A stretch of DNA of 53,459 nucleotides, from the NCBI GenBank assembly GCA_903930455.1, contig CAIYYT010000103.1, positions 1 to 53,459 of the forward strand. The letters are read 5' to 3'. Shown here one piece after another: positions 2,089 through 43,232 of the stretch; the stretch's first letter is position 1; each line of letters starts with the position of its first letter. The notes under the pieces were generated by a model. That model was not told the DNA's origin and made no database searches. It worked only from the letters and a program-made list of their open reading frames with translations. The position numbers and the translations under genes were made by a program. The stretch comes from an uncultured bacterium. GTDB lineage: Bacteria > Zixibacteria > MSB-5A5 > CAIYYT01.

Positions 2089-2103
2089 TGAGGTGCATCG
2101 ACG

Positions 2104-3462: not shown

Positions 3463-4567
3463 AACACAGGATGCGTCCGTCGCCGAGATTCTTAGCGGTG
3501 TCAGAGTACTGCTGGTGGCGCCGTCGCTGGCAATCTTGGGGGGTCAGGCGGTCCAGGCCGATCTGTTGCTTCGCAACCTTCGCGCGGAGGGCGTGTCTGC
3601 CGACCTTCTTCCGATCAACCCGGTGCCGTGGTGGCCGCTCAAATATCTCACGCTCATCAAGTATGTTCGAACGTTGGTTGTTTCGATTTTCTATGTTGCC
3701 TCGTTGCTATTCAAGGTCTGGCGATATGATGTGATTCATGTTTTCTCTGCGTCATACTTCTCATTCATCCTTGCGCCAACGCCGGCGTTGTTGATCGCAA
3801 AGCTCTATCGCAAGAAAACAATCCTCAACTATCGGTCAGGCGAAGCGGAAGATCATTTCACGCGTTGGGGTAAGAGCATATTCTGGATTATTCGTTTGGC
3901 AGACAAAATCATCGTTCCATCCGGCTATCTAATCGACGTCTTTGGCAGGTTCGGTTTTCGCGCAGAGCCTATCTTCAATATCTCAGATTTCGGTGCCTTC
4001 CAGGATCGCAAGCGCCGGGTAGTGACTCCACATATTCTGGTCGCTCGCAATCTGGAACCTCTATACGATATCGAGACATCAATTCGCGCTTATGCAGTAA
4101 TCAAGTCTAAGTACAGCGCCGCCACTCTGACTATTACGGGCTATGGCTCAGATGAACGCCGCCTCAAATCTCTGGTGCGCGATCTCAACATCCAAGACGT
4201 CACTTTCACGGGGCGCGTTGAACGCACGCAGATGCCCGAACTATTTCATCAGGCTGACATCTTTCTCAATAGCTCAGTGATCGACAACATGCCGGTCGCC
4301 ATCATTGAGGCTTTTTATGCCGGACTGCCGGTTGTGACGACCGATGCCGGAGGCATTCCTTATATCGTTCGTGATCGCGAAAGCGGGCTGCTGGCGCCGA
4401 AACGCGATGCCATTGCTCTTGCTGCGGCCCTTTGCGAAGCAATCGACAACGCTGACCTGCGGCAGAAGATGATCGACGGCGGACGTGCTTTTGCGCAGGA
4501 GTGCAGTTGGCAAAGAGTCAAATGGCAGTGGGCCAAAGCGTACCGGGAGTTGGCTGATGCGCGCTGA
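3440..4567 (+). CDS. Glycosyltransferase family 4 (group 1)
   Basis: A 375-residue GT-B fold glycosyltransferase of family GT4. The N-terminal domain starts with VLLVAPSLAILGGQAVQAD, the glycine-rich acceptor-side loop. The C-terminal donor domain shows ILVARNLEPLYDIETSI, FTGRVERTQMPELFHQADIFLNSS and the EX7E-type segment around AIIEAFYAGLPVVTTDAGG. I chose the ATG at 3440, which overlaps the upstream gene by 23 bp; a longer in-frame start would sit deep inside it. A hydrophobic stretch at about residues 75-95 may be a membrane-association helix. It probably adds one sugar to the lipid-linked repeat unit; donor unknown. Confidence 0.85.
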   Translation: MSPANVAETQDASVAEILSGVRVLLVAPSLAILGGQAVQADLLLRNLRAEGVSADLLPINPVPWWPLKYLTLIKYVRTLVVSIFYVASLLFKVWRYDVIHVFSASYFSFILAPTPALLIAKLYRKKTILNYRSGEAEDHFTRWGKSIFWIIRLADKIIVPSGYLIDVFGRFGFRAEPIFNISDFGAFQDRKRRVVTPHILVARNLEPLYDIETSIRAYAVIKSKYSAATLTITGYGSDERRLKSLVRDLNIQDVTFTGRVERTQMPELFHQADIFLNSSVIDNMPVAIIEAFYAGLPVVTTDAGGIPYIVRDRESGLLAPKRDAIALAAALCEAIDNADLRQKMIDGGRAFAQECSWQRVKWQWAKAYRELADAR

Positions 4568-6914
4568 CAAGCTGGGGAAGTTTGTTAAGAAACTCGCCTC
4601 CGGTCAGTTTGGTGAACTTGCCGATCGTTTGCGCGAAGAATGGCGTCGTCGCGAAGAGCGTCGCGTCTATCAAGCTGGTCGGTCAACCTTCGATACGAGC
4701 CATCTTGACACTATCTTCACGACTGACTTTCTTCAGCGCTTTGTATCGCGCGAAAAGAAAATTGATTTCGTCGCCGCTTTACGGGAGCACACTGACACAG
4801 AATTTATGCCTGGATTTGCTCTGCGGAGCAAGTTCAGAGAATATGTCGAGACGGCCTTGCCCTCAGAGCGCCAACGTATTATTGCGGTGGCGGAACAGAT
4901 CGTTTCCAATCGGTTCCCAATCTTTAATCTTGGGTTTATCTCTTATGGCGATCCACCGCGTTGGAACCACGACCCGATTTACGAAGTCACCGCTCCCGAG
5001 TGTTTCTATTGCGACATCGACTATCTCGATCCGTCGGTCGTAGGCGATTCCAAGGTCGTTTGGGAAATTTCCCGCTTTCAGTTTATTTATGACCTTGGGC
5101 AGGCATATTTGCTTACCGGCGATGAAAAATATCCGTGCAAGTTCTTTGAGCTGGTGCAGGACTGGAGCCGGAAGAATCGTGATTATCACGGCGTCAACTT
5201 CTGCTCGGCGCTCGAATCGGCCTTTCGCATTCATGCTCTGGCCTGGGGTATCTGGTTTTTCAAAGACTCATCGTCGTTGACCAGCGAATATGCGGGAGAC
5301 CTCTACAGACTGATACATACCTGTGCAAACTTCGTTCGTCATCACCTGTCAAAGTATTTCTCTCCGAATACACATCTCTTGGGAGAAGCGTACGCTCTTA
5401 TGATTGCCGGTATTCTCTTTAGCGAGTTTAGCGATGCTTCCGTCTGGCAACAGCTTGGATATGATACTCTTTTGGCAGAGTTGGATCGTCAGTTTACGAA
5501 AGATGGCATGCACGCTGAGTTGTCGACAGCTTATCACGGTTACACCGTTGAGTTTCTGCTGTCACTAGTAGCCCTTTGCAGGCAGCGTAATATTCCGCTG
5601 GAAGCACGCTTTCACGAACGGCTTGCGCAGGGGACCGATGTGTTAACGGCACTGCAACGACCGGATGGCACTTGGCCGCATATCGGCGATGAGGACGGCG
5701 GGCGCCTATTCTTCCTGAGTCGAGTTCCGGCATCCGATTTCCGCCCGCTGGTGGATGCTTGCCGAGCGCTGCTTTCTCATGGGACGACGGGCTCATTTGT
5801 CGATAGCTTCTGGTTCTGCGGCGAGACATCCAGCAACTCACCGGTCCAACCTACGGTGACGGAGTCGACTCGTCTTGGTGATGCCGGGATCATCGTATCG
5901 CGTTCCAAAGAAGGGATGTTCTCACTATTACAATGCGGCAGTTTTGGATACGGCGATTCTCCTCATTCGCATGCCGATATGCTGCATCTTGATATTTCTG
6001 TGGGTGACGACAACTTCCTTGTCGATCCCGGAACCTGCGTGTACACGGCCGATCTCGACAAGCGCAATCGCTATCGTTCAGCGGCGGTGCACAACGGCCC
6101 GACCATAGCGCGCTTGTCGCTAGAAAACCCGCGCGATCCTTTTGGCTGGCTGCAGAAGCCCGACTGCCGAGTGAAGGCGTATCACAAGACGGAACGATCG
6201 GAGTTCTATGAAGCGACGTACAGAGTGAGCATGGATCGTCATGTAGTTACATTTTCGCGCTCCGTACTGTTTCTGCATGACATGTTCTGGATTGTTTGCG
6301 ATGCAATCGCTGCAACGGCTCCGGCGCAATTGCATACCAATTTTGCTACGCCTTTTCCGATCGAGCGGAGTGCACAAGGCGCTGTTCTGTTGGGTGAGTC
6401 GGGTCGGATGGCAATCGTACCATGCCTGTCCGGAAGTGACAAGATCGAAACGACGATTGAGCCTTTTGCGGTCTCGGATGATTATCTCTCAACTCGGCAA
6501 GGCTACAGGTTGACGATTTCCCGTCAGACGTCGTCACCATCAACAGCCGTATACGTACTATTGCCGTATCAACAGGACGAAGAGTTGCCCGAGAACATGG
6601 TCGTTGATCAGACAGCGAATGGCTTGACAATTCGTCTTACTCGTGGCGGTGCCATGACGCTAATTGCCTGTGGAAGGCCTCAGAATGCCGACATTGATAG
6701 TGATGCTGACTTCGTATTCATACAGCTTACGGATCAAACTGTTCAGCGCGCTGTGATCGTTGGTGGCAGTAGAGTGGGGTACAAGTCCAGCGAGCTTCTT
6801 CGCACAAGAGGAGTTGTCAAGTACGCCGACATTATCAGAGATGGGGGCGAATACCGTATCAATGCCACGGGTGTTGTGGAGTTGATTACACCGTTCCCGA
6901 TGAGAAAGACGTGA
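4557..6914 (+). CDS. Heparinase II/III family polysaccharide lyase-like protein
   Basis: A 785-residue heparinase II/III-like protein with an N-terminal alpha/alpha-toroid and a C-terminal beta-sandwich. Toroid motifs include WGIWFF, NTHLLGEAYALM and GMHAELSTAYHGY (catalytic-type His/Tyr region). The sandwich has the hallmark GDSPHSHADMLHLDI, VDPGTCVY and the AVHNGPT segment. The start at 4557 overlaps the glycosyltransferase by 11 bp. I see no signal peptide: the N-terminus is basic and non-hydrophobic, so it is cytoplasmic or exported by an unusual route. The family eliminates at uronic-acid linkages; in EPS operons such proteins are thought to edit or turn over the polymer. This fits the AlgD-like dehydrogenase downstream. 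Confidence 0.85.
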   Translation: MRADKLGKFVKKLASGQFGELADRLREEWRRREERRVYQAGRSTFDTSHLDTIFTTDFLQRFVSREKKIDFVAALREHTDTEFMPGFALRSKFREYVETALPSERQRIIAVAEQIVSNRFPIFNLGFISYGDPPRWNHDPIYEVTAPECFYCDIDYLDPSVVGDSKVVWEISRFQFIYDLGQAYLLTGDEKYPCKFFELVQDWSRKNRDYHGVNFCSALESAFRIHALAWGIWFFKDSSSLTSEYAGDLYRLIHTCANFVRHHLSKYFSPNTHLLGEAYALMIAGILFSEFSDASVWQQLGYDTLLAELDRQFTKDGMHAELSTAYHGYTVEFLLSLVALCRQRNIPLEARFHERLAQGTDVLTALQRPDGTWPHIGDEDGGRLFFLSRVPASDFRPLVDACRALLSHGTTGSFVDSFWFCGETSSNSPVQPTVTESTRLGDAGIIVSRSKEGMFSLLQCGSFGYGDSPHSHADMLHLDISVGDDNFLVDPGTCVYTADLDKRNRYRSAAVHNGPTIARLSLENPRDPFGWLQKPDCRVKAYHKTERSEFYEATYRVSMDRHVVTFSRSVLFLHDMFWIVCDAIAATAPAQLHTNFATPFPIERSAQGAVLLGESGRMAIVPCLSGSDKIETTIEPFAVSDDYLSTRQGYRLTISRQTSSPSTAVYVLLPYQQDEELPENMVVDQTANGLTIRLTRGGAMTLIACGRPQNADIDSDADFVFIQLTDQTVQRAVIVGGSRVGYKSSELLRTRGVVKYADIIRDGGEYRINATGVVELITPFPMRKT

Positions 6915-6929
6915 GGAGTTGAGTTCGAA

Positions 6930-8858
6930 ATGTGTGGAATTTGCGGAATAGTATATAAGGATAAGGATCGATCGGTAGACCGCGAACTGTTGGTCAAGAT
7001 GACCGATACACTCACGCATCGCGGTCCCGACGATTGTGGTTACTACGTCAAGGGGAACGTCGCGCTGGGGCATCGCCGTCTATCGATTGTCGATCTGAGT
7101 CTGGGGCACCAGCCGATAGCCAACGAGGATGGCACTCTCTGGATTTCGTACAACGGTGAAGTCTACAACCATCGCGATGTCCGGCGCGATCTGGAGTCAA
7201 AAGGGCACCGCTACAAGACTAATTCCGATACCGAATCAATTGTGCACTGTTTCGAAGAATATGGTTCTGCCGGCCTACATCGGTTGCGCGGCATGTTTGC
7301 CTTTGCGCTCTATGATGAGAAGGGTGAGAAGCTGTTTATTGCTCGCGACCGCCTTGGCATCAAGCCGCTGTATTACGTCGACACACCCCGGTTTTTCGCG
7401 TTCGCCTCCGAGATCAAGGCGCTACTGGTGTTGGATGACGTCAGGCGTGAAGTCGACTACGACGCTCTTCTCCAAATACTGGCGCTCAAATACACGAACG
7501 ACGATTCGACCATGTTTGCCGATATCAAGAAACTCGAGCCGGGGCATTATCTAGAGTTGCAGCGTGGCATCGTCAGTATTGCACGTTACTGGGATTGTAA
7601 CACGATTCAGACCGACATATCAATGTCGGAGCCGGACGCCGTCAATCGATTGCGCGAGTTGCTTGATGAATCAGTGCGATTGCGCCTGATGGCTGATGTG
7701 CCGCTGGGGATGTTTCTTTCGGGTGGAGTTGATTCCACAATTATTGCAGCTCGCATGGCCAAGATGGTCGATCGACCGATCGCAACTTTTTCGGTCGCCT
7801 TCCAAGAGCGGGAAGCTAACGAGCTGTATTATGCCCGTTTGGCCGCGAAACATGCGGGCGCCAACCAGCACGAAATCACGATGACGACGGAGGATTTCTT
7901 TGCCGCATTGCCGCGCATGATTTATCACGAGGATGAACCGGTAGCGCACCCGTCATCGGTAGCATTGAATTGCGTGTCACAACTCGCCAGCGAGCATGTA
8001 AAGGTCGTTCTCACGGGGGAAGGCTCGGATGAGCTGTTCGGGGGCTACGAGCGCTATTACCAGACGCTGTACAATCTCAAGGCTGATCGGATGTTATTCT
8101 CAGTGCTGCCGCGTTCCATAAGGCGCGGGCTCTTTCGGCCATTGATTGACATGTTGCCTTACAAATTTCCGTATCGTAACAAGGCTTTGCGAACAACTGT
8201 CTACCTCGACAGCGATATCGAGACCATCTTTCTTGACAACTACTCGACTTTCTCACGCGCTATGCTTTCGGAGTTGCTTACTGGTGCTTGTTGGAATGGT
8301 CATGATCCCCGCGCCGTCTATTCCGGCTTTATGGATCACTTCAACCGGTCACAGGCCGATACTCTGTTGGGCAAGTTGCTTTACGCCGACGTCAAGACCT
8401 ATCTGGTTGAACTGCTGATGAAACAGGATCAGATGTCGATGGCTGCTTCGATTGAGTCGCGCGTGCCGTTTCTGGATCACGAGCTGGTCGAGTTCGCGTT
8501 CTCGCTGCCTGATAAGCTCAAGATCAAGGGGTTCAATACTAAGAGAGCGCTGCGGATGGCCTTTGGTAATGATATTCCTGAAGAGATTCTCAACCGCCCC
8601 AAAGCCGGTTTTCCGGTGCCGATCAAAAGTTGGTTCGCTGGCGAATACCATCAGACGGCCAAAAATCTCGTGCTGGGCAAGGATTCTTTCTGCGGAGAAA
8701 TACTCGATCGCAAGTTGATCGAAGGTTATTTCAGTTTGCATCAGCAGGGCAAGTACAACCACTCTGATCGCATCTGGACGCTGCTGAATATAGAGCTTTG
8801 GCATCGTATCTTCATCCGTCGCGAACCACTTGATAACATCAGGTTGCTGCCGCAATGA
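6930..8858 (+). CDS. Glutamine-dependent asparagine synthase-type amidotransferase (AsnB-like, EPS-associated)
   Basis: A 642-residue class-II glutamine amidotransferase fused to an asparagine synthetase domain. The mature N-terminal nucleophile is Cys2 (MCGICGIVY), followed by GHRRLSIVDLS and SYNGEVYNH. The PP-loop SGGVDST lies at residues 264-270, then LTGEGSDELFGGY and SRVPFLDH. GAGGAG precedes the ATG. Exosortase-type EPS loci encode a dedicated amidotransferase of this size and order, so it more likely amidates a sugar carboxylate or attached acid than free aspartate. A separate AsnA at the right edge of the window could cover asparagine synthesis. It overlaps the next gene by ATGA. Confidence 0.88.
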   Translation: MCGICGIVYKDKDRSVDRELLVKMTDTLTHRGPDDCGYYVKGNVALGHRRLSIVDLSLGHQPIANEDGTLWISYNGEVYNHRDVRRDLESKGHRYKTNSDTESIVHCFEEYGSAGLHRLRGMFAFALYDEKGEKLFIARDRLGIKPLYYVDTPRFFAFASEIKALLVLDDVRREVDYDALLQILALKYTNDDSTMFADIKKLEPGHYLELQRGIVSIARYWDCNTIQTDISMSEPDAVNRLRELLDESVRLRLMADVPLGMFLSGGVDSTIIAARMAKMVDRPIATFSVAFQEREANELYYARLAAKHAGANQHEITMTTEDFFAALPRMIYHEDEPVAHPSSVALNCVSQLASEHVKVVLTGEGSDELFGGYERYYQTLYNLKADRMLFSVLPRSIRRGLFRPLIDMLPYKFPYRNKALRTTVYLDSDIETIFLDNYSTFSRAMLSELLTGACWNGHDPRAVYSGFMDHFNRSQADTLLGKLLYADVKTYLVELLMKQDQMSMAASIESRVPFLDHELVEFAFSLPDKLKIKGFNTKRALRMAFGNDIPEEILNRPKAGFPVPIKSWFAGEYHQTAKNLVLGKDSFCGEILDRKLIEGYFSLHQQGKYNHSDRIWTLLNIELWHRIFIRREPLDNIRLLPQ

Positions 8859-10081
8859 AAGTACTCTGGCTCAAGTCCGATTTTCCGCTGCCAGCCGATA
8901 CCGGCGGCAAGATCAGAACCATGAATCTGCTGTCAGCGTTGGCGAAACTGTGCGACGTGACGTTCCTATCGTATGTTCCACCGGAACTCGATAGCAAATG
9001 GGTCAACCAGATGCGCGGTTTCGGTGTCAGAGTCGAGTCGGTGGTGCGGCCGGAAGAGAACAAGGAAGGACTCGCCTTCAAACTGCGTGTGCTTTTCAAG
9101 CTGCTGTCATCGCGACCCTATATCGTGAACAAATACATCACTCCAGAGATGGCTCAACGAGTCGGGAAAGTCACTGCTGAAAAACAGATTGACGTTGTTG
9201 TCTGCGATTTTCTGGAAATGGCATGGTCTGCCAAGCATCTTGGCAGCATACCGAAGGTGCTTTTCGAGCACAACGTTGAGACACTAATCTGGCGACGATA
9301 TCACGAGGTCGAAAAGGCTATTCTAAGGAAGCTCTATTTCGCGTACGAAAAGAATCGCCTGGAGCGATTTGAGCGGGATAGTTGCGCTCGGTTTGATCAG
9401 GTATTAACCGTCTCCGACAACGACGGTGAACTGCTCCGCAAAGAATTCGGTCTGCGACGCTACGTTACGATTCCGACCGGTGTCGACACGGGTTTCTTCC
9501 ATCCGTTGGGGCGGGAGACCAAGCACCGGTTGGTTTTCTGCGGCTCAATGGATTGGATGCCGAACATCGACGGCTTCTGGTGGTTCTATCGCGAGATCCT
9601 ACCGAAAATCAAACAGGAGATCGCGGATGTCAGCATTGCAGTGGTCGGTCGTCGCCCGGCAGAGGATATTGTCAAAATGGGGCAGGACGACAAGTCGGTC
9701 ATTATCACCGGCACTGTCGCCGATGTCCGTCCGGAAGTGGCTACCGGACAGATTTACGTAGTGCCACTGCGCGTTGGCGGTGGAACTCGCATCAAGATTT
9801 ACGAGGCGCTGGCGATGCGCAAGTGCGTCGTCTCGACGACCATCGGCGCCGAGGGATTGCCTTTGACAGACGGTGTGAACATCGTGCTGGCCGACGGCGA
9901 AAACGAGTTCGCAAAAAAAGTCACGGAATTGTTGCGTGACGACAACAAACGAAATAGAATTGCCGAAGCCGGTTTTCGACTGGTGACGGAGAAATATAGT
10001 TGGAGCAAGGCGGCGGAGAAATTGCATGAAGCGCTGAAAGCCGTTGCCGGTGTTCGTATTGATTTGAAGGCAAGGAATTGA
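8855..10081 (+). CDS. Glycosyltransferase family 4, resembling the PEP-CTERM/EpsH1-associated sugar transferase type
   Basis: A 408-residue GT-B glycosyltransferase. The N-terminus reads LKSDFPLPADTGGKIRTMNLL, the glycine-rich loop typical of sugar transferases of exosortase-linked EPS loci (the TIGR03087 style; assigned from memory, not searched). The donor domain has FCGSMDWMPNIDGFWWF, VVGRRPAEDI and PLRVGGGTRIKIYEALAM with the acidic donor-binding residue. Translation is coupled to the amidotransferase by a 4-bp overlap. It probably transfers a hexose or uronic acid on the cytoplasmic face of the membrane. Confidence 0.85.
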   Translation: MKVLWLKSDFPLPADTGGKIRTMNLLSALAKLCDVTFLSYVPPELDSKWVNQMRGFGVRVESVVRPEENKEGLAFKLRVLFKLLSSRPYIVNKYITPEMAQRVGKVTAEKQIDVVVCDFLEMAWSAKHLGSIPKVLFEHNVETLIWRRYHEVEKAILRKLYFAYEKNRLERFERDSCARFDQVLTVSDNDGELLRKEFGLRRYVTIPTGVDTGFFHPLGRETKHRLVFCGSMDWMPNIDGFWWFYREILPKIKQEIADVSIAVVGRRPAEDIVKMGQDDKSVIITGTVADVRPEVATGQIYVVPLRVGGGTRIKIYEALAMRKCVVSTTIGAEGLPLTDGVNIVLADGENEFAKKVTELLRDDNKRNRIAEAGFRLVTEKYSWSKAAEKLHEALKAVAGVRIDLKARN

Positions 10082-10088
10082 GGCTGAG

Positions 10089-11402
10089 ATGAAGATTTCC
10101 ATATTTGGACTAGGGTATGTCGGTGCGGTCACCGCTGCCTGCTTGGCCAAGCAGGGGCATCAGGTTATCGGCGTTGACATCAATCGCGATAAGATCGAGC
10201 AGCTCTCGGCCGGGAAAAGCCCGATTGTCGAAGATAAGATTGCCGAGATCATTTCGGATACTGTCGGTAGCGGCAAGCTGAAGGCCACGATGGACGCCAA
10301 AGCCGCCCTTAACGAAACCGAGGTCTCAATGATTTGCGTCGGCACACCATCGAAGGAAAATGGTGACGTCGATTTGACCTATGTGCTGCGGGTCACCGAG
10401 AAGATCGGCCAACTGCTAAAGAACAAATCCGAGTTTCATACGCTTATCTATCGCTCGACGATTCCTCCGGGGACGACCGAGGAGAAGATTATCCCGGTGC
10501 TGGAAGAGGCTTCCGGCAAGAAGGTCTATATTGACTTCGACGTATGCTTCAATCCCGAATTCCTGCGTGAAGGCGCTTCGGTAGACGATTTCTTCAATCC
10601 GCCGTTCACCATTGTGGGAGTACAGTCGGAGGGGGCGGCCGAGGTCGTGCATCGCGTCTTTTCGTTCCTGCAGGCGCCGTTTGAGACGACGACCATCCGC
10701 ACCGCCGAGATGGTCAAGTATGTTTGCAATACTTGGCATGCTCTCAAGGTCTGTTTCGGCAACGAGATCGGGACTTTGGCGCGCCGTCTGGGAATCGACG
10801 GCTACGAAGTGATGCGACTGTTTCTCCTAGATGCCAAACAGAACGTCTCAGGGATGTATTTGAAGCCCGGTTTCGCGTATGGCGGTTCGTGTCTGCCCAA
10901 AGACGTGCGTGGCCTGCTCTATCAAGCGAAGAGCGTTGACTACAACGCGCCGCTCCTGTCCGCCATCCCTGGTTCCAACGAGCGTCAACTTGAAGAGGGT
11001 TACAAGATCGTAACGTCGTTCAAGAAGAAGAAAATCGGCTTTCTGGGTTTGGCGTTTAAGGGTGGCACCGACGATCTGCGCGAATCACCGTTGGTTTTGC
11101 TGGCCGAACGACTGGTAGGCAAGGGATATGAGCTGTTGATCTATGATCGCAATGTCAACATCGCTCGCATCTTCGGGTCCAATAAGGCCTATATCGAGAA
11201 AGAGATTCCGCACATAGAGAAGCTGTTCGCGTCGTCGGTCGAGGAAGTGATTTACAGCTCTGATGTGATCATTATTGGCAATCACGACTCCGAATACCTC
11301 GCCGCGCTCAAGAGTGTCAAGGATCGCGAGATCGTTGATTTCGTGCGCATCGGAGATCAGGTGGCGCAGCTCGGCGACAATTATCATGGCATCTGCTGGT
11401 AA
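10089..11402 (+). CDS. UDP-glucose/GDP-mannose dehydrogenase family protein (AlgD-like)
   Basis: A 437-residue NAD-dependent nucleotide-sugar dehydrogenase that oxidises a hexose C6 to the carboxylate in two steps. The Rossmann motif GLGYVG is at residues 7-12. The catalytic thiol is in GGSCLPKD at Cys268, and KYVCNTWHA gives Cys213. Both numbers coincide with the active-site Cys268 and with Cys213 of Pseudomonas GDP-mannose dehydrogenase AlgD, and CNTWHALKVCFGNEIG is AlgD-like rather than the usual UDP-glucose dehydrogenase version. This favours GDP-mannuronate as product, though UDP-sugars are not excluded. It sits 7 bp after the glycosyltransferase stop behind GAGG and overlaps the next gene. 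Confidence 0.88.
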   Translation: MKISIFGLGYVGAVTAACLAKQGHQVIGVDINRDKIEQLSAGKSPIVEDKIAEIISDTVGSGKLKATMDAKAALNETEVSMICVGTPSKENGDVDLTYVLRVTEKIGQLLKNKSEFHTLIYRSTIPPGTTEEKIIPVLEEASGKKVYIDFDVCFNPEFLREGASVDDFFNPPFTIVGVQSEGAAEVVHRVFSFLQAPFETTTIRTAEMVKYVCNTWHALKVCFGNEIGTLARRLGIDGYEVMRLFLLDAKQNVSGMYLKPGFAYGGSCLPKDVRGLLYQAKSVDYNAPLLSAIPGSNERQLEEGYKIVTSFKKKKIGFLGLAFKGGTDDLRESPLVLLAERLVGKGYELLIYDRNVNIARIFGSNKAYIEKEIPHIEKLFASSVEEVIYSSDVIIIGNHDSEYLAALKSVKDREIVDFVRIGDQVAQLGDNYHGICW

Positions 11403-12393
11403 CGCAAAACCGACCATCTCAGTTGTTCTTCCCGTACGCAACGAGGGCCGGTTCATCAGTTCCGTTTTGCAGGAATTGGCCGAACAGGATTTTCCGCGTG
11501 AGGATTATGAAATCATCGTCGTTGACGGGGAATCAACCGATGACACGGTCGCGGTTGCATCAAAGTATCGCGATCGATTTGACCGCTTTCAGATCATTGA
11601 GAATCCAAAGCATCTATCCGCAGCTGCGCGCAACCTCGGCTATCGCGCCGCGATCGGCGAGTTCATACTCTATGTCGACGGCCATTGCCGGATTCCGTCC
11701 AAGCGTCTGCTTGCGGACATGACTGCAATCTTTCGTCAGAACGATGTTGATGCGCTATGCCGTCCGCAACCGCAGACTGCCGGGCCGCAAACCTATTTTC
11801 AGCAGGCCGTATCGCTAGCGCGCACTTCGGCGCTGGGGCACGCGCTTGATTCGACGATTTACAACGATCAGGAACGGGTTGTGCCGGCGGCATCTTCAGG
11901 CGCCATGTATCGCCGGGACGTCTTTGAGAAAATAGGGGAATTCGATGAACAATTTGATGCATGTGAGGATGTCGAATTCAATACCCGCGTCGATAAGGCT
12001 GGTCTCAAGGCAATGATTTCTCCCAAATTGACGGTCGAATATGCGGCTCGCACAAGTCTGCGCAGATTGTTCCGTCAGCTATATCGATACGGCTACGGAC
12101 GGTGGCTGCTCTTCCGCAAGCACCCATCCACGCTGGGTATTGGCACCTTGATACCAGTACTCTTTGTCTTGGGTCTGTTTGCGCTGCCATTCACTTGGTT
12201 GGTTTCGCTCAAGGCGGGCTTGATAGTCTCCGTGCCCTATGTCTTCTATCTGATAGCCGCGTGTGCCGTCTCGCTCGGCATCGCCCGTAAGAATCGAAGG
12301 TCGCTGATCTTCATCCTGCCCTTTATCTTTTTTACGATTCACTTCGCCTTCGGTATAGGCTTTATTGTTGCCCTCACAAGATCGCAGCGGTAG
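11386..12393 (+). CDS. Glycosyltransferase family 2, ExoA-like, with C-terminal membrane segments
   Basis: A 335-residue GT-A enzyme of the succinoglycan ExoA type. ISVVLPVRNEGRFI opens the nucleotide-binding fold, DGESTDDT is the first acidic motif, LYVDGHCRIPSKRL carries the DxD-like metal site, and CEDVEFNTRV the catalytic-base region. Two or three hydrophobic spans at about residues 255-335 anchor it in the inner membrane. The ATG at 11386 overlaps the dehydrogenase by 17 bp; the frame is open further upstream but that stretch lies inside the dehydrogenase. Role: sugar transfer to an undecaprenyl-linked intermediate (inferred from the family). Confidence 0.86.
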   Translation: MASAGNAKPTISVVLPVRNEGRFISSVLQELAEQDFPREDYEIIVVDGESTDDTVAVASKYRDRFDRFQIIENPKHLSAAARNLGYRAAIGEFILYVDGHCRIPSKRLLADMTAIFRQNDVDALCRPQPQTAGPQTYFQQAVSLARTSALGHALDSTIYNDQERVVPAASSGAMYRRDVFEKIGEFDEQFDACEDVEFNTRVDKAGLKAMISPKLTVEYAARTSLRRLFRQLYRYGYGRWLLFRKHPSTLGIGTLIPVLFVLGLFALPFTWLVSLKAGLIVSVPYVFYLIAACAVSLGIARKNRRSLIFILPFIFFTIHFAFGIGFIVALTRSQR

Positions 12394-12402
12394 GGAAGAG
12401 GT

Positions 12403-13521
12403 ATGGTGTCCGACCGGATCAAAATCATGTATGTCATCGGCTCAATGGGGCATGGTCGTGCCGGTACCGAGCGCAACCTTCTGACGATTATTGAGCATCT
12501 GGATCGAACTCGTTTTGAACCCTTCCTGGTCAGCCTGCAGGACTGCGAGTACATACAACAGGGCAAATTCATCTGCGATACCGCATGCCTGCATCTTTAT
12601 CGCATGTTCACTCCCGCGATGTGGCGCAAACGCAAACAACTGGCGCAGCGCATGCGAGAACTCGGTATCGATGTCGTGCAAACCTTCTTTGTTGAAGGTC
12701 ACCTCGTTGGCGGGGCCGCCGCGCGGATGGCTGGCGTAAAGGCGATTATCTCCTCGCGCCGTAACCTCGGGTACAGTTATGGCCTTAAGGAAAGACTGCT
12801 GCTGAAGCTCGCCAACCGCTATCCGCGACGTTGGCTCGCAAATTCGCAAGCGGTCGCCGACACGATTTCGCGACTGGAGGCGATCGATCGCAGTCGCTTT
12901 GATGTGATATACAACGGCGTCGAAATCCCGGCGTCGGACACTGGCGGTACCGCTACGGCGGTCACCCCCAATCAGACAGTTGTAATGGTCGCCAATCTTC
13001 GTCCCGTGAAAGCGGTTGACACTCTGATTCGCGCCGCCGCAGTTGTCGTCAAGAGTGTTCCCAATGTTAGATTCGCGATCGTCGGTGACGGTCCGCAGCG
13101 CACATCACTTCTCAAACTCACCGCCGAACTATCACTAACCGATCAGGTGGATTTCGTAGGCAGCGCCAGCGACGTCCGCTCGACCCTGCGGGGCGCAACG
13201 GTCGGAGTTCTGACCTCGACCAGCGAAGGTTTCTCGAACGCAATTCTCGAGTACATGTGCGCCGGTCTACCGGTGGTTGCCACTGACGTTGGTGGCAACA
13301 GGGAAGCGGTTCTTGACGGTAAAACCGGATTATTGATTGCTCCAGCCGATCATGGAGCGCTCGCAAGCAAGCTGATTTACTTGCTCACACATTCCGACGA
13401 GTCACTCCGCCTCGGTCAAGCCGGTAGGGAGCGGGCCGAATCCGAATTTTCGCTTGCTGCGATGATCCGCAACTATCAGGAATACTATATCAGATTAGTG
13501 AAGCAATTCGGATCCGAGTAG
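12403..13521 (+). CDS. Glycosyltransferase family 4
   Basis: A 372-residue GT-B glycosyltransferase. IMYVIGSMGHGRAGTERNLL is the N-terminal glycine-rich loop. MVANLRPVKAVDTLIRAA, FVGSASDVRSTLRGATVGVLTS and SEGFSNAILEYMCAGLPVVA show the donor domain with the conserved ExxxxxxxE glutamates. It begins 9 bp after the ExoA-like gene and is the last member of the tightly packed operon. No terminator follows directly; the next gene starts about 100 bp later behind its own promoter-like element. Confidence 0.86.
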   Translation: MVSDRIKIMYVIGSMGHGRAGTERNLLTIIEHLDRTRFEPFLVSLQDCEYIQQGKFICDTACLHLYRMFTPAMWRKRKQLAQRMRELGIDVVQTFFVEGHLVGGAAARMAGVKAIISSRRNLGYSYGLKERLLLKLANRYPRRWLANSQAVADTISRLEAIDRSRFDVIYNGVEIPASDTGGTATAVTPNQTVVMVANLRPVKAVDTLIRAAAVVVKSVPNVRFAIVGDGPQRTSLLKLTAELSLTDQVDFVGSASDVRSTLRGATVGVLTSTSEGFSNAILEYMCAGLPVVATDVGGNREAVLDGKTGLLIAPADHGALASKLIYLLTHSDESLRLGQAGRERAESEFSLAAMIRNYQEYYIRLVKQFGSE

Positions 13522-35195: not shown

Positions 35196-35224
35196 TTGAC
35201 TTTTCCACACCTGGCTCATATATT
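35196..35224 (+). promoter_or_regulatory. Strong sigma-70 promoter for the giant surface protein
   Basis: TTGACT, 17-bp spacer, TATATT. Expected start about 35231, giving a leader of about 160 nt before the gene at 35394. The rest of the 34967-35393 spacer contains no other gene. Confidence 0.8.
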
Positions 35225-35393
35225 GCACACGTCTGCGTTAGAGTACTTCTCGCTGTGCTTTTGTGCTTGAAGACTTGTTGAACTGGAAGCAAATGAGGCG
35301 TTAGAGACCATTCGGTCAAGCTAAGAATATGCAAAGCCTTGTTACACAGCGCGACTTTGTATCAGAAGAACCCACGCTTTTCGGAGAGTGAAT

Positions 35394-38300
35394 GTGAAAA
35401 CATTAAGAATCCTCGCCAGTCTAGCTCTCTACTTGGCACTCATCACCCAGGCTGCTCATGCTGCCGGTGGAGCGCATCCTTGGAGCGATTCGCTAAAGGC
35501 GCAAGCGCTCTTTAGCGGGCCTTCTCTGCAGGAAGTGTTGAACGGTCTCGGTTACTCAATCAATGTAGCGAGCGACGAGGTACCTTTGCAAGTGTTTGCC
35601 CCACCATCAAATGGAACATCGGGTGAAGCGACGCTGAAGTACAAGAACTCGTCCTCCAATGCCAACTTCGGCTGGTATTCCAAAGGCACGCCAGCGAACA
35701 AGACGCAGTTGCTTGCTGCGAGTGATTCGGTTGGTTCGCATGCGAATATCACGATACCGGCTGGTGATTCTATTGGTTTTTACCTTGGACCAACGCTTTA
35801 TGACGACATTTGGTACACCCAGACCGTTTTGAACTGGGATGTCTACAGGCATATCAAAGTGTTCTCCACTGGTTCGCCTAACAAGTACGTTGTCGCATGG
35901 GAGGATCTCCCCGACGGTGGCGATCAGGACTTCCAGGACTGCATCCTTGAAGTCCATCTTCAGGATCCTAACGAGTTGTTTCTGACTTTCGAGGGTTCGA
36001 ACAACATCTCAGTCTGTAATCCCGACTCAATCTGTTTCCTAATTCATGCGGCCAATGGCATCGGCAATCTGACTCTTTCCAAGATGGTCAACAGTGTGCC
36101 ACAGGCGCTCGCTACGGGCCCGTCTCCACTGACCTATCGCTACTGCTTCCTGCCAACTTCCTACGCCATTACCGATTACCGCTTCATTTTCCGTTTGAAT
36201 GATCAGGCATCCAATCAGATACTCGACACATTCGATATTCATCTCGCGTTTCAGAATATGCCGGTACTCACGGTTGATCCCGACTTCATTGATACCCTGA
36301 TCTGCAGGCGCGACACGATCTGCTTCGATGTCGTTTCGGCAGTTGATCCGGATGGTGACCCAATTAAGTATAGCCTTCTATCGGGGCCTGGCGTCATTGA
36401 TTCACTTACCGGTAGGATTTGCTTCCTACCCAATGATGCGGACTCGGTCGATTATCAGTTTATCGTAATGGCTTCCGATCCTTGCTGTTATTCGTTGCCG
36501 CTTCCCAGGACGCAGTTGCCTTGCCCGCGAGACACAATTACCTACCGAGTGTTGCTGCATAAGCCACCCGTGATTGTCTCAATACCCGACACGACCATGA
36601 GGCTCTGCAAACTTGACCCAGTTTGTTTCCCGGTGTCCGCTGCCACCCCGAGCGGGGTGCAGGTACCGGTTATCAAGGACTGCGGTCCGGGCACTATCGC
36701 CAATGGTCAACTCTGTTTCACTCCGACTGCCGCTGGCTTGTATACCTTCTGCTTCTACGTTAATGACGATTGCGGCGGAGTTGTGCGTGACACTGCTAAG
36801 ATTACTATCACTCTGAATAATCCGCCGGTTGCCAATGCCGGCAGAGACTCGTCACTCTCCCAGTGCGCACCGGCACCGATCTGCTGGCCTGCAAGCTGCA
36901 GCGACCCGGACGGCAATTTGCAATCCTGCACTCTGCTTTCCGGTCCCGGCACCTACAACGGTTCGCAGATCTGTTTTACGCCGACCGGCACAGGTATCTA
37001 CACTTTCATTCTGAAAGCCACCGATTTGTGCGGCGAGACTGATGTCGATACGGCTATTATCACTGTTCACGTTGGTCATCCACCAGTGGCTTTAGTCCGC
37101 GATACAACGGCAACTCTTTGCACGGCGACCCAAATCTGTTTGCCGGCATCATGTAGCGATCCCGACAACGATTTGGCCTCATGTACGCTGTTATCCGGTC
37201 CCGGCGTTTATAGCGGCACAGCCATCTGTTTCACTCCGACTATCTCCGGCACGTACCAGTTTATCCTGAAAGCTACCGACGCTTGTGGGCTCATGGCGTA
37301 TGACACAGGCACTGCGATTGTCCACATCAACAGTCGTCCCGACGTCGTTGCCGGCGGTGGTAGCTTCACTCTCTGCCGTCCGGAATCGATCTGTGTAGCG
37401 ATTAGCGCCTCTGATCCTGATAATGACAACCTGACTTTCACCACCACGATGGGCAAGGTTGTGGGAAACAGCATCTGCCTCTGGTCCGGTGGTGAGGGAA
37501 GACGGCAGCTGGCGTACAATGTTATCGCTACTGATCCATGCGGCGCCAAGGATACAGCACTTTATCTGGTGAACGTCCTTGTCAACATGGTACCGATTAT
37601 TCAAGTACCGACACCGACTACACGGACCATGTGTGATCCTACGCAGCTCTGCTTCACTGTCACCGCTGTTGACTCTATTATGGGAAAACTAACTTACTCG
37701 ATACTTACCGGCCCCGGCACGATCAACGCTAACACCGGCCAGGTTTGTTTCACACCGACAAGTTCGGCCACCTACAATTGGCAGATTGTCGTCACCGACA
37801 GTTGCGGCAAGGCTGACACCGGCAGTGTTGACTGGCAGGTTGGTTTCATTCCTGAACCGAGTGCGGTCGTCGTACCGCTGGCAGGTGATACCGTCGTCTG
37901 TTTCGGCGATACCATTGGCTCTCTATGCAAGACCGTGACTTACACCGACCCCACGCAAAGCACTACGATCACCGTAGTCCCGAGCGATCCCGGCATCTCC
38001 TGGTCGTTCGGTTACAGCAACGGCAGCGGACAACTCTGTTTTACGCCGCGAGTGGATGTCACAAAGACATACGACTTTACGTTCAATCGCGTAAACGAGT
38101 GCAATGATACTTCTACGAGCATCTATAGCTATGGGGTCAAGTACGACCGGTGCGATTCCGCTTGCATGATCATTTCCCTTGAACAGACCACCTGCATCAA
38201 TATCGGATCGCTTACGCCGGTCAGAATTTCGCTCACCAACGGCAAGATTCCAATCGGCGGTTTTGATCTGCTGATTCAATATGACGTCTCAGCTTTCACC

Positions 38301-39647
38301 TTCGTGTCGGCATCTCTGGGAGCGGCAATCAACGGGTGGGAGTACTTCACCTACCGGCTTGGCCCATTTGGTAATTGTGGTTCCAGTTGTCCTTCAGGAT
38401 TGGTCAGGTTTGTAGCTCTGGCCGACGCCAACAATGGCGCCAGCCATCCTCCTGTCGGTCAATTTGATCCTGATGGCGTGATTGTGGCTATGACGTTTCG
38501 TGTAACGTCGAACGCCACCTATGAAGGAATGGTCTTTCCCTTGAGTTTCTACTGGTATGACTGCGGTGACAACGGCATCTCGTCGGTCAGTGGTGATACA
38601 CTGATAGTCGATAGGAGCGTCTATAACACTGAGGCGATTCTCTGGGATGAGTTTGATGAGGTTGGCTTCCCGGAATCTAATCGTATCGACGGTGTCGGCG
38701 CGCCTGATACATGCCTCGTCGGAAACAAGAAGACTCCGTTGCGTTGTGTCGAATTCCACAATGGCTCGATCTGCATTATCAATGCCGACTCGATTGACGC
38801 GCGCGGTGATCTGAATCTTAACGGCGCTGCCAACGAAATTGCGGACGCAGTGCTTTACACCAATTACTTCCTCAGGGGAATCTCGGTCTTCACGATCTCC
38901 GTCGCCGGGCAAAAGGCAGCCTCAGATGTCAATAACGACGGCCGCACGTTGACAGTTGGCGATCTCGTCTACTTGCTTCGCATTCTCACTGGCGACGCCG
39001 AGCCGATCCCGAAGCTGTCTCCGTATGCTGATCAGATTGACTTCACGATGAAGGAAGCCGACGGCGCGACCACCCTGCAGGTCGAAAGCCCGACGCAGAT
39101 CGGTGGCCTCTATTTGCAGTTCAAGACTACGGGCAATTCGGCGGCCGAAATCACTAGAGATCCTGCTCTTGCCGATATGGAAATCCAGACAGCGAGTGAA
39201 GGCGATCAAACGAACGTCATCATCTACTCGAATCGGAAGGGGGCGGTGATTCCTGCGGGTGTCAACACTCTGCTGACCATTCCCGGCTCCTGCGAGATTG
39301 TGCGCTTGGAAGCGAGCGATTACTATGGCAATATGCTGGTATCTCGGATTACTACGACATCCAGTGTACCGTCACACTTCGTGATTGGTCAGAACTATCC
39401 GAACCCGTTCAACCCGACGACGACTATCAACTTCTCGCTGCCAACGCCGACCGCTTGGACTCTCAGCGTAATCAACGTCAGTGGTCAGGTTGTCAAGCGC
39501 TATACTGGCGCGGCGGGAATCGGCTCCGTAACCGTCACCTGGGATGCCACCGATCAGGATGGACAAGCGGTTGCTACCGGTGTCTACTTCTATCGCCTTG
39601 ATGCCGGAGACTTCAGCGAAACCAGGAAAATGGTGTTGATGAAATGA
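35394..39647 (+). CDS. Giant secreted protein: DUF4114-like, Ig-like repeats, cohesin-like, dockerin-like and C-terminal sorting domain
   Basis: 1417 residues starting at GTG with GGAG 7 nt upstream. Signal peptide (residues 1-24, ALITQAAHA). The DUF4114-like module (about 85-185) ends in the acidic DLPDGGDQDFQDC. About eight Ig-like repeats follow (about 200-920), with recurring SGPGTYNG, ICFTPT and SCSDPDG motifs and conserved cysteines. A cohesin-like module spans ~922-1085, then dockerin-like calcium loops (GDLNLNGAANEIADAV and SDVNNDGRTLTVGDLV, ~1132-1200). The end (from QNYPNPFNPTTTINFS) is a FlgD/Por-type sorting domain. Function is probably surface adhesion or scaffold. A cohesin and a dockerin in one chain is unusual and raises the possibility of self-assembly. 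Confidence 0.8.
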   Translation: MKTLRILASLALYLALITQAAHAAGGAHPWSDSLKAQALFSGPSLQEVLNGLGYSINVASDEVPLQVFAPPSNGTSGEATLKYKNSSSNANFGWYSKGTPANKTQLLAASDSVGSHANITIPAGDSIGFYLGPTLYDDIWYTQTVLNWDVYRHIKVFSTGSPNKYVVAWEDLPDGGDQDFQDCILEVHLQDPNELFLTFEGSNNISVCNPDSICFLIHAANGIGNLTLSKMVNSVPQALATGPSPLTYRYCFLPTSYAITDYRFIFRLNDQASNQILDTFDIHLAFQNMPVLTVDPDFIDTLICRRDTICFDVVSAVDPDGDPIKYSLLSGPGVIDSLTGRICFLPNDADSVDYQFIVMASDPCCYSLPLPRTQLPCPRDTITYRVLLHKPPVIVSIPDTTMRLCKLDPVCFPVSAATPSGVQVPVIKDCGPGTIANGQLCFTPTAAGLYTFCFYVNDDCGGVVRDTAKITITLNNPPVANAGRDSSLSQCAPAPICWPASCSDPDGNLQSCTLLSGPGTYNGSQICFTPTGTGIYTFILKATDLCGETDVDTAIITVHVGHPPVALVRDTTATLCTATQICLPASCSDPDNDLASCTLLSGPGVYSGTAICFTPTISGTYQFILKATDACGLMAYDTGTAIVHINSRPDVVAGGGSFTLCRPESICVAISASDPDNDNLTFTTTMGKVVGNSICLWSGGEGRRQLAYNVIATDPCGAKDTALYLVNVLVNMVPIIQVPTPTTRTMCDPTQLCFTVTAVDSIMGKLTYSILTGPGTINANTGQVCFTPTSSATYNWQIVVTDSCGKADTGSVDWQVGFIPEPSAVVVPLAGDTVVCFGDTIGSLCKTVTYTDPTQSTTITVVPSDPGISWSFGYSNGSGQLCFTPRVDVTKTYDFTFNRVNECNDTSTSIYSYGVKYDRCDSACMIISLEQTTCINIGSLTPVRISLTNGKIPIGGFDLLIQYDVSAFTFVSASLGAAINGWEYFTYRLGPFGNCGSSCPSGLVRFVALADANNGASHPPVGQFDPDGVIVAMTFRVTSNATYEGMVFPLSFYWYDCGDNGISSVSGDTLIVDRSVYNTEAILWDEFDEVGFPESNRIDGVGAPDTCLVGNKKTPLRCVEFHNGSICIINADSIDARGDLNLNGAANEIADAVLYTNYFLRGISVFTISVAGQKAASDVNNDGRTLTVGDLVYLLRILTGDAEPIPKLSPYADQIDFTMKEADGATTLQVESPTQIGGLYLQFKTTGNSAAEITRDPALADMEIQTASEGDQTNVIIYSNRKGAVIPAGVNTLLTIPGSCEIVRLEASDYYGNMLVSRITTTSSVPSHFVIGQNYPNPFNPTTTINFSLPTPTAWTLSVINVSGQVVKRYTGAAGIGSVTVTWDATDQDGQAVATGVYFYRLDAGDFSETRKMVLMK

Positions 39648-40110: not shown

Positions 40111-40563
40111 ATGCTAAACAAGACAATACTCTTAGTTGAGGACAACCCGGACGATGTGACGCTGACACTGCGTGCATTCAAACAACATAACGTCCAAAAT
40201 GAAGTGGTGGTGGCGCGTGACGGCATGGAGGCCCTTGATTTCCTATTTGGCATGGGTGCCTACGCGAACCGTGATGGTGAGAGCATGCCGCAGTTGATTT
40301 TGCTGGATCTGAAGCTGCCCAAAATCGACGGCATGGAAGTACTGCGGCGCGTCCGCGCTGACAAGCGCACATGTCTGTTGCCGGTCGTGATCCTGACTAC
40401 CTCGCGTGAAGAGCAGGACCTGACAGATAGCTACACTCTGGGCGCCAACAGTTACATCTGCAAGCCGGTCGATTTCGAACAATTTATCGAAGCTGTGCGG
40501 CAACTCAATCTCTATTGGTTGGTCTTGAATGAGACTCCTACACACAATGGGATATTGGTATGA
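40111..40563 (+). CDS. Single-domain response regulator, Rcp1-like
   Basis: A 150-residue receiver protein of the cyanobacterial-phytochrome Rcp1 type, with the acidic pair in LLVEDNPDD, phospho-acceptor Asp66 in LILLDLKLPKIDGMEVL and Lys118 in YICKPVDF. The C-terminal tail after the receiver (about residue 130) has no DNA-binding domain, so signalling is by protein contact. GGAGGAG lies 6 nt before the chosen ATG. The stop overlaps the next start (ATGA), coupling it to the REC-histidine kinase. In such pairs the response regulator often feeds the neighbouring kinase (inferred). Confidence 0.87.
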   Translation: MLNKTILLVEDNPDDVTLTLRAFKQHNVQNEVVVARDGMEALDFLFGMGAYANRDGESMPQLILLDLKLPKIDGMEVLRRVRADKRTCLLPVVILTTSREEQDLTDSYTLGANSYICKPVDFEQFIEAVRQLNLYWLVLNETPTHNGILV

Positions 40564-41708
40564 GCCAGAAACTCTCCGTGTTAATCGTAGAGGATTCGGA
40601 AAGCGACGCTGCTCTGTTGGTCAGACAGCTCGAGCGCGCCGGTGGATATGAAGTGTATCACGAGCGCGTCGAGACTGCCGACTGCATGCGAAAGGTGCTC
40701 CAGCAAGGATCGTGGGATGTAATTCTCTCAGACTACAAAATGCCTCAATTCAGCGCGCCGTTAGCTCTCGACGTGCTGAAAGAGTCTGAACTCGATCTGC
40801 CCTTTATCGTTGTCTCCGGCAGTATTGGTGAAGAAATCGCCGTGGCCACCATGAAAGCGGGTTCGCATGACTACGTAATGAAAGACCATATGGCTCGCCT
40901 GGTTCCAGCCATAGAGAGGGAACTGCGCGAGGCACGGATGCGCGCTTCACACCGTGAGGCCGAGAAACGCCTGCGGGTAACTGAGCGTCTTCGCGCTGTC
41001 GGAGAAATGGCAGCGTCGATTATTCATGATCTCAAGACGCCGATGCAGGCGGTCTTGACCGCTACGGAAGTGCTCTCGCAACATGACTTGCCCGGCGAAA
41101 TGCGTGCCAACCACTGTCGCGATATCAACGAACAGGTGCGGAGGATGGTTTCTTTAACGCAGCAAGTACTCGAATTTGTCAAGGGCGAGATCAGAATCAG
41201 CGCGAGCATGATTGATCTGATTCGCTTTTGCGATGACACCGTCAATTCGTTCAGAGCTACTCTTTCGGGCACCAGTGTCACCGTGAACTTCTCGTACATG
41301 CTGAACGGGGGCGTGTCGCCGTCGGTGATTCTTGACTCGGAGAAAATCTGGCGCGTGCTCATCAATCTGATGAATAACGCCCGAGATGCCTTGCAGTACG
41401 GGGGTGAGATTAACGTCCGACTGATGATGAACCGCGAGATCATTCGCTTGGAGGTGGCAGACAACGGGCAAGGTATACCGGAGATGATACGCAACCGGAT
41501 CTTCGAACCCTTCGTCAGCGAGGGTGGGATTAAGGGTACCGGTTTAGGGCTGGCAATCGTGCAGCAAATAGTGAAGGCACATGGGGGTACGGTGACCTTT
41601 GAAACGGCAGAAGGCAAGGGAACGACATTTATCGTTACGTTGCCGCGTGTGGCGTTGAAGTCGGCGAATCACACGCCGATTGATGTCGTGCATGCATTGC
41701 AGGGTTGA
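40560..41708 (+). CDS. Receiver-histidine kinase protein
   Basis: A 382-residue protein with an N-terminal receiver domain (phospho-Asp58 in VILSDYKMP, plus MKDH), then a histidine kinase. The phosphorylated His156 is in IIHDLKTPMQAV. The ATP domain has NLMNNARDAL (N box), DNGQGIPE (G1), FEPFVS (F box) and GTGLGLAIV (G2). The order REC-HK without an obvious PAS or transmembrane sensor suggests input arrives by phosphotransfer, possibly from the preceding response regulator. The downstream neighbour at 42193, on the other strand, is a PEP-CTERM protein, but a link is not shown. Confidence 0.87.
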   Translation: MSQKLSVLIVEDSESDAALLVRQLERAGGYEVYHERVETADCMRKVLQQGSWDVILSDYKMPQFSAPLALDVLKESELDLPFIVVSGSIGEEIAVATMKAGSHDYVMKDHMARLVPAIERELREARMRASHREAEKRLRVTERLRAVGEMAASIIHDLKTPMQAVLTATEVLSQHDLPGEMRANHCRDINEQVRRMVSLTQQVLEFVKGEIRISASMIDLIRFCDDTVNSFRATLSGTSVTVNFSYMLNGGVSPSVILDSEKIWRVLINLMNNARDALQYGGEINVRLMMNREIIRLEVADNGQGIPEMIRNRIFEPFVSEGGIKGTGLGLAIVQQIVKAHGGTVTFETAEGKGTTFIVTLPRVALKSANHTPIDVVHALQG

Positions 41709-42111: not shown

Positions 42112-42129
42112 AAGACCCAAAATAAATAG

Positions 42130-42157
42130 ACCGCATCCGTTTGTACGGATGCGGTCC
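42130..42157 (-). terminator. Terminator of the PEP-CTERM gene
   Basis: An 11-bp stem (GACCGCATCCG) with 6-nt loop, 36 bp past the minus-strand stop. On the minus strand it is followed by TATTTATTTT. Could act in both directions. Confidence 0.65.
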
Positions 42158-42192
42158 ATTTCTTGTTCTCTAGGTCGTTCTACGGAACGTTC

Positions 42193-42969
42193 TTATTTGC
42201 GACGACGCAGCGACGCGCCGAGACCCAGCAGACCCATGCCCAGAAGAATCATCGAGCCCGGTTCAGGAACCACGCCGTAAGTCTTCTCAAGCAAATCGTT
42301 GCCACATTCCATCGTGGTGTGGAAGGTGATCGATGACTGGGACGTCAGGTCAGTGCCCAGCAGCGAACGGGAAATCTTGTATTCCTTGATGTAGGTGTCA
42401 CCATCGCCCGGGGTCAGATAACCAGACTCAAGGCCGGCGTACAGTGTGGAGGTCTCGGCAATATTGCCCAAGAGGCTGGAACCGGCGTTGATGTCGAAAG
42501 CGCCGACCTCGTTTGTGATGATCGGATCTAAACTGCCGTAACCACCTGGGACTGATGGGATGAAGTTCCAGTTGCTTGAATCCCCAACAGCGTAAAGCTT
42601 TGAATTTGAAACGTCAACAGCATAGTCGTACTTATTGGCACCGAAACCGAAGAACAGATCGCCTTCCGCATAGGTATTAATCGATGCGCCGAACGACGCC
42701 GTTACGGAAACGTAAAGATAGTCGTTGTCGTACGCAAAGTTCAGTCCTTCAAGGTCGTACTTCTCGCCACCTTCATTGCTATGACCCGGGGATGGCAAAT
42801 AGCCGATACCATACGGATACATTATCGGAGAGGTGTTGTTGTTACCGTCGAAGACCGAACTGCCGAAATCGTAGTAGCCAGGTGACCATGTCACAGTCAC
42901 ACCGTATGCGGGATTGACTAGGAGCGCTACGGCCACTGTCAGCAGAAGCGTGAATAAGAGTTTCTTCAT
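42193..42969 (-). CDS. PEP-CTERM sorting domain-containing secreted protein
   Basis: A 258-residue exported protein with a signal peptide (KKLLFTLLLTVAVALLVNPAYG). The C-terminus VVPEPGSMILLGMGLLGLG ends in a basic cluster RRRK (last 26 residues), the exosortase-recognised PEP-CTERM signal. The body (about 25-230) is an asymmetric beta-rich domain with YLYVSVTASF and a Cys in TMECGNDL. GGAGG precedes the ATG, and a perfect sigma-54 promoter lies just upstream. Longer in-frame starts reach into that promoter, so the short start is right. Predicted fate: cleaved or anchored by an exosortase, probably encoded outside this window, and associated with the EPS. Confidence 0.9.
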   Translation of the reverse strand: MKKLLFTLLLTVAVALLVNPAYGVTVTWSPGYYDFGSSVFDGNNNTSPIMYPYGIGYLPSPGHSNEGGEKYDLEGLNFAYDNDYLYVSVTASFGASINTYAEGDLFFGFGANKYDYAVDVSNSKLYAVGDSSNWNFIPSVPGGYGSLDPIITNEVGAFDINAGSSLLGNIAETSTLYAGLESGYLTPGDGDTYIKEYKISRSLLGTDLTSQSSITFHTTMECGNDLLEKTYGVVPEPGSMILLGMGLLGLGASLRRRK

Positions 42970-43012
42970 TCTTTCCTCCAAAAGGTTAAATCTATTCATC
43001 ACCTCTTGCTTA

Positions 43013-43028
43013 AGCAAACGCCGTGCCA
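43013..43028 (-). promoter_or_regulatory. Sigma-54 (RpoN) promoter of the PEP-CTERM gene
   Basis: On the minus strand the sequence reads TGGCACG, four bases, then TTGCT, a perfect match to the -24/-12 consensus (GG at -24 and GC at -12 separated by 10 nt). Transcription should start around 43002, giving a leader of ~33 nt with a Shine-Dalgarno before the ATG at 42969. PEP-CTERM genes in other bacteria are known to be under RpoN control with the PrsK/PrsR pair. Confidence 0.88.
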
Positions 43029-43232
43029 TATTGAGGCGGCTTTTCCGAAAGATAAGTGGTTGTCAATCAATAGACTGTCGAAGTCATTTGCTTCTACTGT
43101 TCTCGGCCGGCCACGACCGCGTTCTGGTTGTACAGCTTTTCGACATACTTGTTGACTCTCTTTAAGTCACATTATGTAAGCGATTGATATACAACGAACT
43201 AACTATTTACGGCGATGTCGAAATCGCTAACA

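Follow-up and report, generated by a model that had tools for sequence, protein, structure and literature searches.

The question raised by this locus is whether a gene for a PEP-CTERM protein, lying behind a sigma-54 promoter outside the Proteobacteria, belongs to an exosortase-associated regulon of the proteobacterial kind, and which activator and which polymer would go with it. The DNA analysed (the window, the whole stretch of 53,459 nucleotides) comes from a genome of 3.77 Mb in 266 contigs (G000; 100% complete) of the phylum GN15/Zixibacteria. GN15 is an order of the Zixibacteria class MSB-5A5 (PMC11080526) and NCBI taxonomy places Zixiibacteriota within the FCB group, so that the preliminary description of this DNA was right in calling it "FCB-like". 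Our reading, to which we give a probability of roughly 0.85, is that the window gene is a member of a sigma-54 regulon of exosortase-sorted surface proteins that would be driven by PrsK, PrsR and RpoN.

The PEP-CTERM gene and its upstream sites

The coding sequence (42193–42969, minus strand) specifies 258 amino acids comprising an N-terminal signal peptide, a phylum-conserved domain of unknown function and a PEP-CTERM tail that ends in VPEPGSMILLGMGLLGLGASLRRRK. With its PEP motif, hydrophobic stretch and basic C-terminus the product is by sequence a PEP-CTERM protein, scoring 28.7 bits against PF07589 (cut-off 20.7) and 24.1 against TIGR02595 (cut-off 16), which confirms the earlier assignment for 42193–43028, an interval made up of the coding sequence and its promoter. 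The family carries the signature CGND[LV] shortly before VPEP, and relatives were found in ten other genomes read and as two paralogs in the source genome (41–70% identity). No sequence relatives of the domain were found in Pfam or PDB and no plasmid relatives of the protein were found. The AlphaFold model was weak (mean pLDDT 65), and the top PDB matches, to the beta-sandwich carbohydrate-binding Sas6/CBM74, were too weak for use (E=0.002, TM 0.33).

A mechanically called reading frame opens at 43029, inside the promoter, and was rejected as the start since the relatives begin at an ATG equivalent to 42969, approximately 40–50 nt after the sigma-54 site. The likely start codon is thus the ATG at 42969, with a Shine-Dalgarno sequence GGAGG (42975–42979, minus strand) 5 nt before it and in the same place in relatives. 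The stop codon is followed by a hairpin resembling an intrinsic terminator (42124–42161, minus strand; 17 pairs with a T-rich tail), and the transcript therefore probably covers a single gene.

The sigma-54 site, TGGCACG-GCGT-TTGCT (TGGCACGGCGTTTGCT; 43013–43028, minus strand), agrees with the consensus at 12 of 12 positions, including GG at −24, GC at −12 and the 10-nt spacing, and the genome encodes RpoN; by these sequence features it is a sigma-54 promoter. Its last base lies 43 nt from the A of the ATG, exactly as had been claimed, and the same-genus relative G001 has an identical −24/−12 site. This was the sole match with no or one mismatch in the window, where the ten other matches all had two mismatches, about the number that shuffled sequences gave in all. 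Further upstream lies the palindrome TGTCGAAAAGCTGTACA (TGTC-N9-KACA, 17 nt; 43129–43145, minus strand), 100 nt from the −24 element and ending in GTACA, which is predicted to be a PrsR enhancer box from dyad counts, scoring, a composite search and an ortholog footprint.

Sorting genes, regulators and polymer in the source genome

The source genome encodes nine PEP-CTERM proteins scoring over the cut-off and one weak candidate, and a −24/−12 site (10–12 of 12 positions) stands just before eight of these ten genes, so that the check proposed in the preliminary description, for the same motif at other PEP-CTERM genes, came out in its favour. Among control ORFs of the contigs read, only 3 of 171 had a site of at least 10/12, indicating that the window site exceeds chance. 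The two PEP-CTERM-type genes that were without a site, C2:5795 and C2:14020, form a pair of paralogs and are of another kind.

Genes that the same description had proposed to look for were recovered as well, and its refuting condition of a genome with no exosortase or RpoN gene does not hold. There is one RpoN (C58:9656; 192 bits) and a full-length exosortase on contig C250 (241 bits for PF09721; 213 for TIGR02602 against a cut-off of 105.6) that falls just under the cut-off for the XrtA subtype (197 against 208) and is directly followed by EpsI (138.5 against 42.8); a second exosortase-family protein is short. Two nucleotide-sugar epimerase/dehydratase-type genes and a UbiA-type prenyltransferase also neighbour the C250 exosortase, and no glycosyltransferase was present among the ten ORFs scanned there. 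PrsR (TIGR02915) scored 574 bits against an equivalog cut-off of 502.6. PrsK (TIGR02916) is encoded directly upstream of PrsR but reached only 296 of the 300 bits required and lacks the first ~54 model positions because the contig begins inside the gene; the same-genus genome G001 has a full PrsK above the cut-off, 94% identical to this copy. The histidine kinase gene that adjoins the PEP-CTERM gene (40560–41708, plus strand), the second-best match to the PrsK model (110 bits), was rejected as PrsK, as the model matched in the kinase part only.

Other observations in this genome concern neighbouring subjects. A second NtrC-type response regulator gene lies right after prsR (G000:C222:3338–4786, L065). 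A perfect sigma-54 site at G000:C86:14947–14962 (minus strand) precedes a lipoprotein gene that has no box and is not of the PEP-CTERM type, and the same site sequence recurs in the same genus at G001:C603. A large protein of the window (35388–39647, plus strand) bears a T9SS sorting tail (TIGR04183; 44 bits against 23) and has a 10/12 sigma-54-like site, TGGCTCATATATTGCA, before its gene at 35212–35227; three further T9SS-tail proteins are encoded on contig C2. Judged by these tails, PEP-CTERM and T9SS sorting both seem to operate in this genome.

The window contains an EPS-type operon (2–13521, plus strand) with acyl-CoA ligase-like, glycosyltransferase, amidotransferase (6930–8858) and UDP-glucose dehydrogenase-like genes, which had been credited with the gene content of an exosortase locus. 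Relatives of XrtA-system families are indeed present, but all score under the cut-off (TIGR03108 570/817 bits, TIGR03087 241/317, TIGR03088 164/409), and the operon has no exosortase, the genome's own being on another contig. It is an even question whether the sorted protein is in fact unrelated to the polymer of this operon and has its partner polymer elsewhere, or none. Some 29 kb of DNA with unrelated genes separates the operon from the PEP-CTERM gene, and the operon's best XrtA-type matches are those sub-threshold ones. Contig C2 carries four PEP-CTERM-type genes, two of them paralogs of the window gene, and also has genes for polysaccharide, among them a relative of TIGR03098 (362/592) and a sugar transferase of PF02397. 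Against this, the matches of the window operon to TIGR03108 and TIGR03087 span the whole length of both families. The alternative bears on the polymer alone and can hold together with control by PrsK, PrsR and RpoN. The polysaccharide-priming sugar transferase gene on C2 has an 11/12 sigma-54 site upstream (G000:C2:7845–7860, minus strand; L054) with only 24 nt between it and a TGTC-N9-KACA box, and polysaccharide may be under direct control of the same regulon. The proposal that protein and polymer form one system is plausible.

Promoters and palindromes across the phylum

The phylum set around the source genome comprised 133 genomes of one class, in which PrsK (E≤1e-60) was found in 29 and an exosortase in 107; "PrsK-negative" here stands for draft genomes that gave no PrsK match at this threshold. 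PrsR scored over its cut-off in 27 of 29 PrsK-positive genomes in comparison to 1 of 32 PrsK-negative ones. PEP-CTERM genes were taken from the PF07589 matches listed across 61 genomes, ranked by E-value, and a site was required to lie no more than 200 nt upstream, to contain GG and GC and to agree at 9 or more of 12 positions. Expected counts came from first-order Markov shuffles, with the reverse strand as a second control. Among the matches listed, sites were present at 63 of 82 genes in PrsK-positive genomes (2.0 expected; 4 on the reverse strand) and at 27 of 40 in PrsK-negative genomes (1.0 expected; 0 on the reverse strand), the latter count excluding four genes that had been picked for matching. 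The idea that these sites depend on PrsK was rejected on this comparison (p=0.28), and the sigma-54 site is therefore general for PEP-CTERM genes of the phylum and independent of PrsK. Since PrsK-negative genomes keep their sites, the phylum must use at least one activator besides PrsR. G018, G019, G045, G058 and G059 are examples of genomes with sigma-54 sites at PEP-CTERM genes and no detectable PrsK, PrsR or palindrome.

The palindrome behaved differently from the promoter, as most genomes without detectable PrsK/PrsR kept their −24/−12 sites while the palindrome was largely absent. When dyads ahead of the −24 element were counted without bias in PrsK-positive genomes, the matches listed yielded 16 occurrences of TGTC-N9-GACA (0.12 expected) and 10 of TGTC-N9-TACA (0.15 expected), neither of which was prominent among the matches listed for PrsK-negative genomes. 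Of 62 PrsK-positive promoters, 26 had a perfect TGTC-N9-KACA no more than 150 nt away (0.28 expected), as did 3 of 30 PrsK-negative ones, again among the matches listed; two of these three belong to G002, which has a PrsK-bearing sister species, G003. The box sits 50–125 nt further upstream than the sigma-54 site, mostly 60–117.

The box was defined and counted on one gene set, and its association with PrsK was then tested on all 133 genomes by a composite search for box and promoter with a single gap of 86–116, which misses boxes outside that range. The composite was present in 18 of 29 PrsK-positive and 12 of 104 PrsK-negative genomes (p=1e-7), and the reversed pattern gave four matches in all. 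A PEP-CTERM gene was read at the composite locus in 15 of the 18 PrsK-positive genomes and 3 of the 12 PrsK-negative ones, the three being G002, G050, which has PrsR, and G098, from the same family as the PrsK-positive G095–G097. Across ten members of the window protein family the spacer has diverged and both box and promoter are kept. In the source genome no box was found within 300 nt at three of the eight PEP-CTERM-type genes with sigma-54 sites (C25, C2b, C172).

In three genomes (G100:C260, G101:C28 and G103:C63) box and promoter lie directly 3' of prsR and before the next gene, which in G101 is a PEP-CTERM gene; this arrangement suggests that PrsR controls a target beside itself. The PrsK-negative genome G120 has a divergent pair of composite sites (C30:14578–14821, L359; palindromes TGTCCAGAATCTGGACA), and the stretch read there showed no PEP-CTERM gene; the pair may belong to the regulon of another activator.

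A published proteobacterial motif offers a comparison. Motif 1 of Haft et al. 2006 is 17 nt long and ends in TTTACA (PMC1569441). Records of Nitrospirae and Verrucomicrobia encode PrsK-like proteins too, and in one Nitrospirae record TGTCGGAATAGTTTACA stands 85 nt ahead of TGGCATGTATATTGCT at a PEP-CTERM gene close to PrsK; this copy is likewise 17 nt long with the TTTACA ending. TGTC-N9-KACA is therefore regarded as most likely the same activator site as motif 1 at a longer spacing, as compared by its text description.

These results bear on whether the window promoter, though a real sigma-54 promoter, is served by another NtrC-type activator, such as the one encoded right after PrsR, with PrsR taking no part. 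The genome encodes many NtrC-type proteins, among them the one after PrsR at C222:3338, and the 27 of 40 genes with sites among the matches listed for PrsK-negative genomes mean that another activator must exist in the phylum; but the palindrome before the window promoter tracks the presence of PrsK/PrsR, and the copy from the Nitrospirae PrsK locus shows the published ending, so that we consider this alternative unlikely for the window gene. A chance −24/−12 match at a gene served by a housekeeping promoter is highly improbable: about half of the 57 genome-wide sites with at most one mismatch are expected by chance (28 for the reversed pattern), but sites precede 8 of 10 PEP-CTERM-type genes against 3 of 171 control ORFs and, among the matches listed, 63 of 82 and 27 of 40 genes across the phylum where chance predicts 2 and 1, and the one sigma-70-type match near the gene (43322–43295) is not in the right place and is at chance level.

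The named genes, the promoter and the box are present, are conserved and co-occur. The preferred reading is control of the window gene by PrsK, PrsR and RpoN. The membrane sensor kinase PrsK would phosphorylate the NtrC-type activator PrsR, which may bind the palindrome ~100 nt upstream, reach RpoN-RNA polymerase at the −24/−12 site by DNA looping and drive open-complex formation through ATP hydrolysis. A one-gene transcript would start near 43002 and end at the hairpin (42161–42124). Sec would export the product, and its C-terminal helix would anchor it in the inner membrane; the exosortase would presumably cleave it close to PEP, after which it would go to the cell surface or to the polysaccharide. 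Across the phylum, we somewhat favour the view that the sigma-54 layer is ancestral and separable from PrsK/PrsR, a second, undescribed activator probably serving genomes without them.

Comparison with known systems

Haft et al. 2006 found shared motifs in Proteobacteria only (PMC1569441). The present genes and sites support the presence of the PrsK-PrsR-RpoN PEP-CTERM regulon outside that group, and the suggestion that RpoN control of PEP-CTERM genes extends beyond Proteobacteria stands for many genomes of this phylum and not one. This kind of system is already known; its occurrence here exceeds the original proteobacterial restriction, and the new element is a sigma-54 layer separated from PrsK/PrsR in many genomes. 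No discussion of such control in Zixibacteria was found in the literature open to search (subscription papers lie outside it). A control system of glue-like surface proteins once called proteobacterial is thus shared with an uncultured FCB phylum and much more widely spread. The 17-nt candidate activator site together with the sigma-54 site makes the regulon predictable gene by gene, the separation of the two layers makes a search for the second activator possible, and the joint action of surface proteins and polysaccharides in biofilms or flocs becomes testable outside Proteobacteria.

The source genome shares with the proteobacterial regulon the exosortase, EpsI, the PrsK-PrsR tandem, PEP-CTERM units of a single gene, a sigma-54 "motif 2" near the start codon and, further upstream, a motif of 17 nt. 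It differs in its host, Zixibacteria, in the persistence of sigma-54 sites in related genomes without detectable PrsK/PrsR, and, descriptively, in a box spacing (100 nt in the window, mostly 60–117 in the phylum) outside the 32–92 nt between motifs 1 and 2 in Proteobacteria (PMC1569441). In Aquincola tertiaricarbonis RN12, pepA is RpoN-dependent with a mapped start and a TGGCAC-type −24/−12 promoter (PMC9850573). Zoogloea resiniphila pepA has a promoter of the same type and requires PrsK/PrsR, which there control polymer retention and not synthesis (PMC9012009). The window gene shares this promoter type, but unlike in those species its product is not PepA, as NF033554 scored 34 bits against a cut-off of 80 through the PEP-CTERM tail alone and gave no match once the tail was removed. 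By analogy, the system may also be likened to LPXTG/sortase sorting in Gram-positive bacteria, with which it would share a C-terminal motif, transmembrane helix, basic tail and proposed membrane transpeptidase, and from which it differs in an unrelated enzyme family and envelope (PMC1569441).
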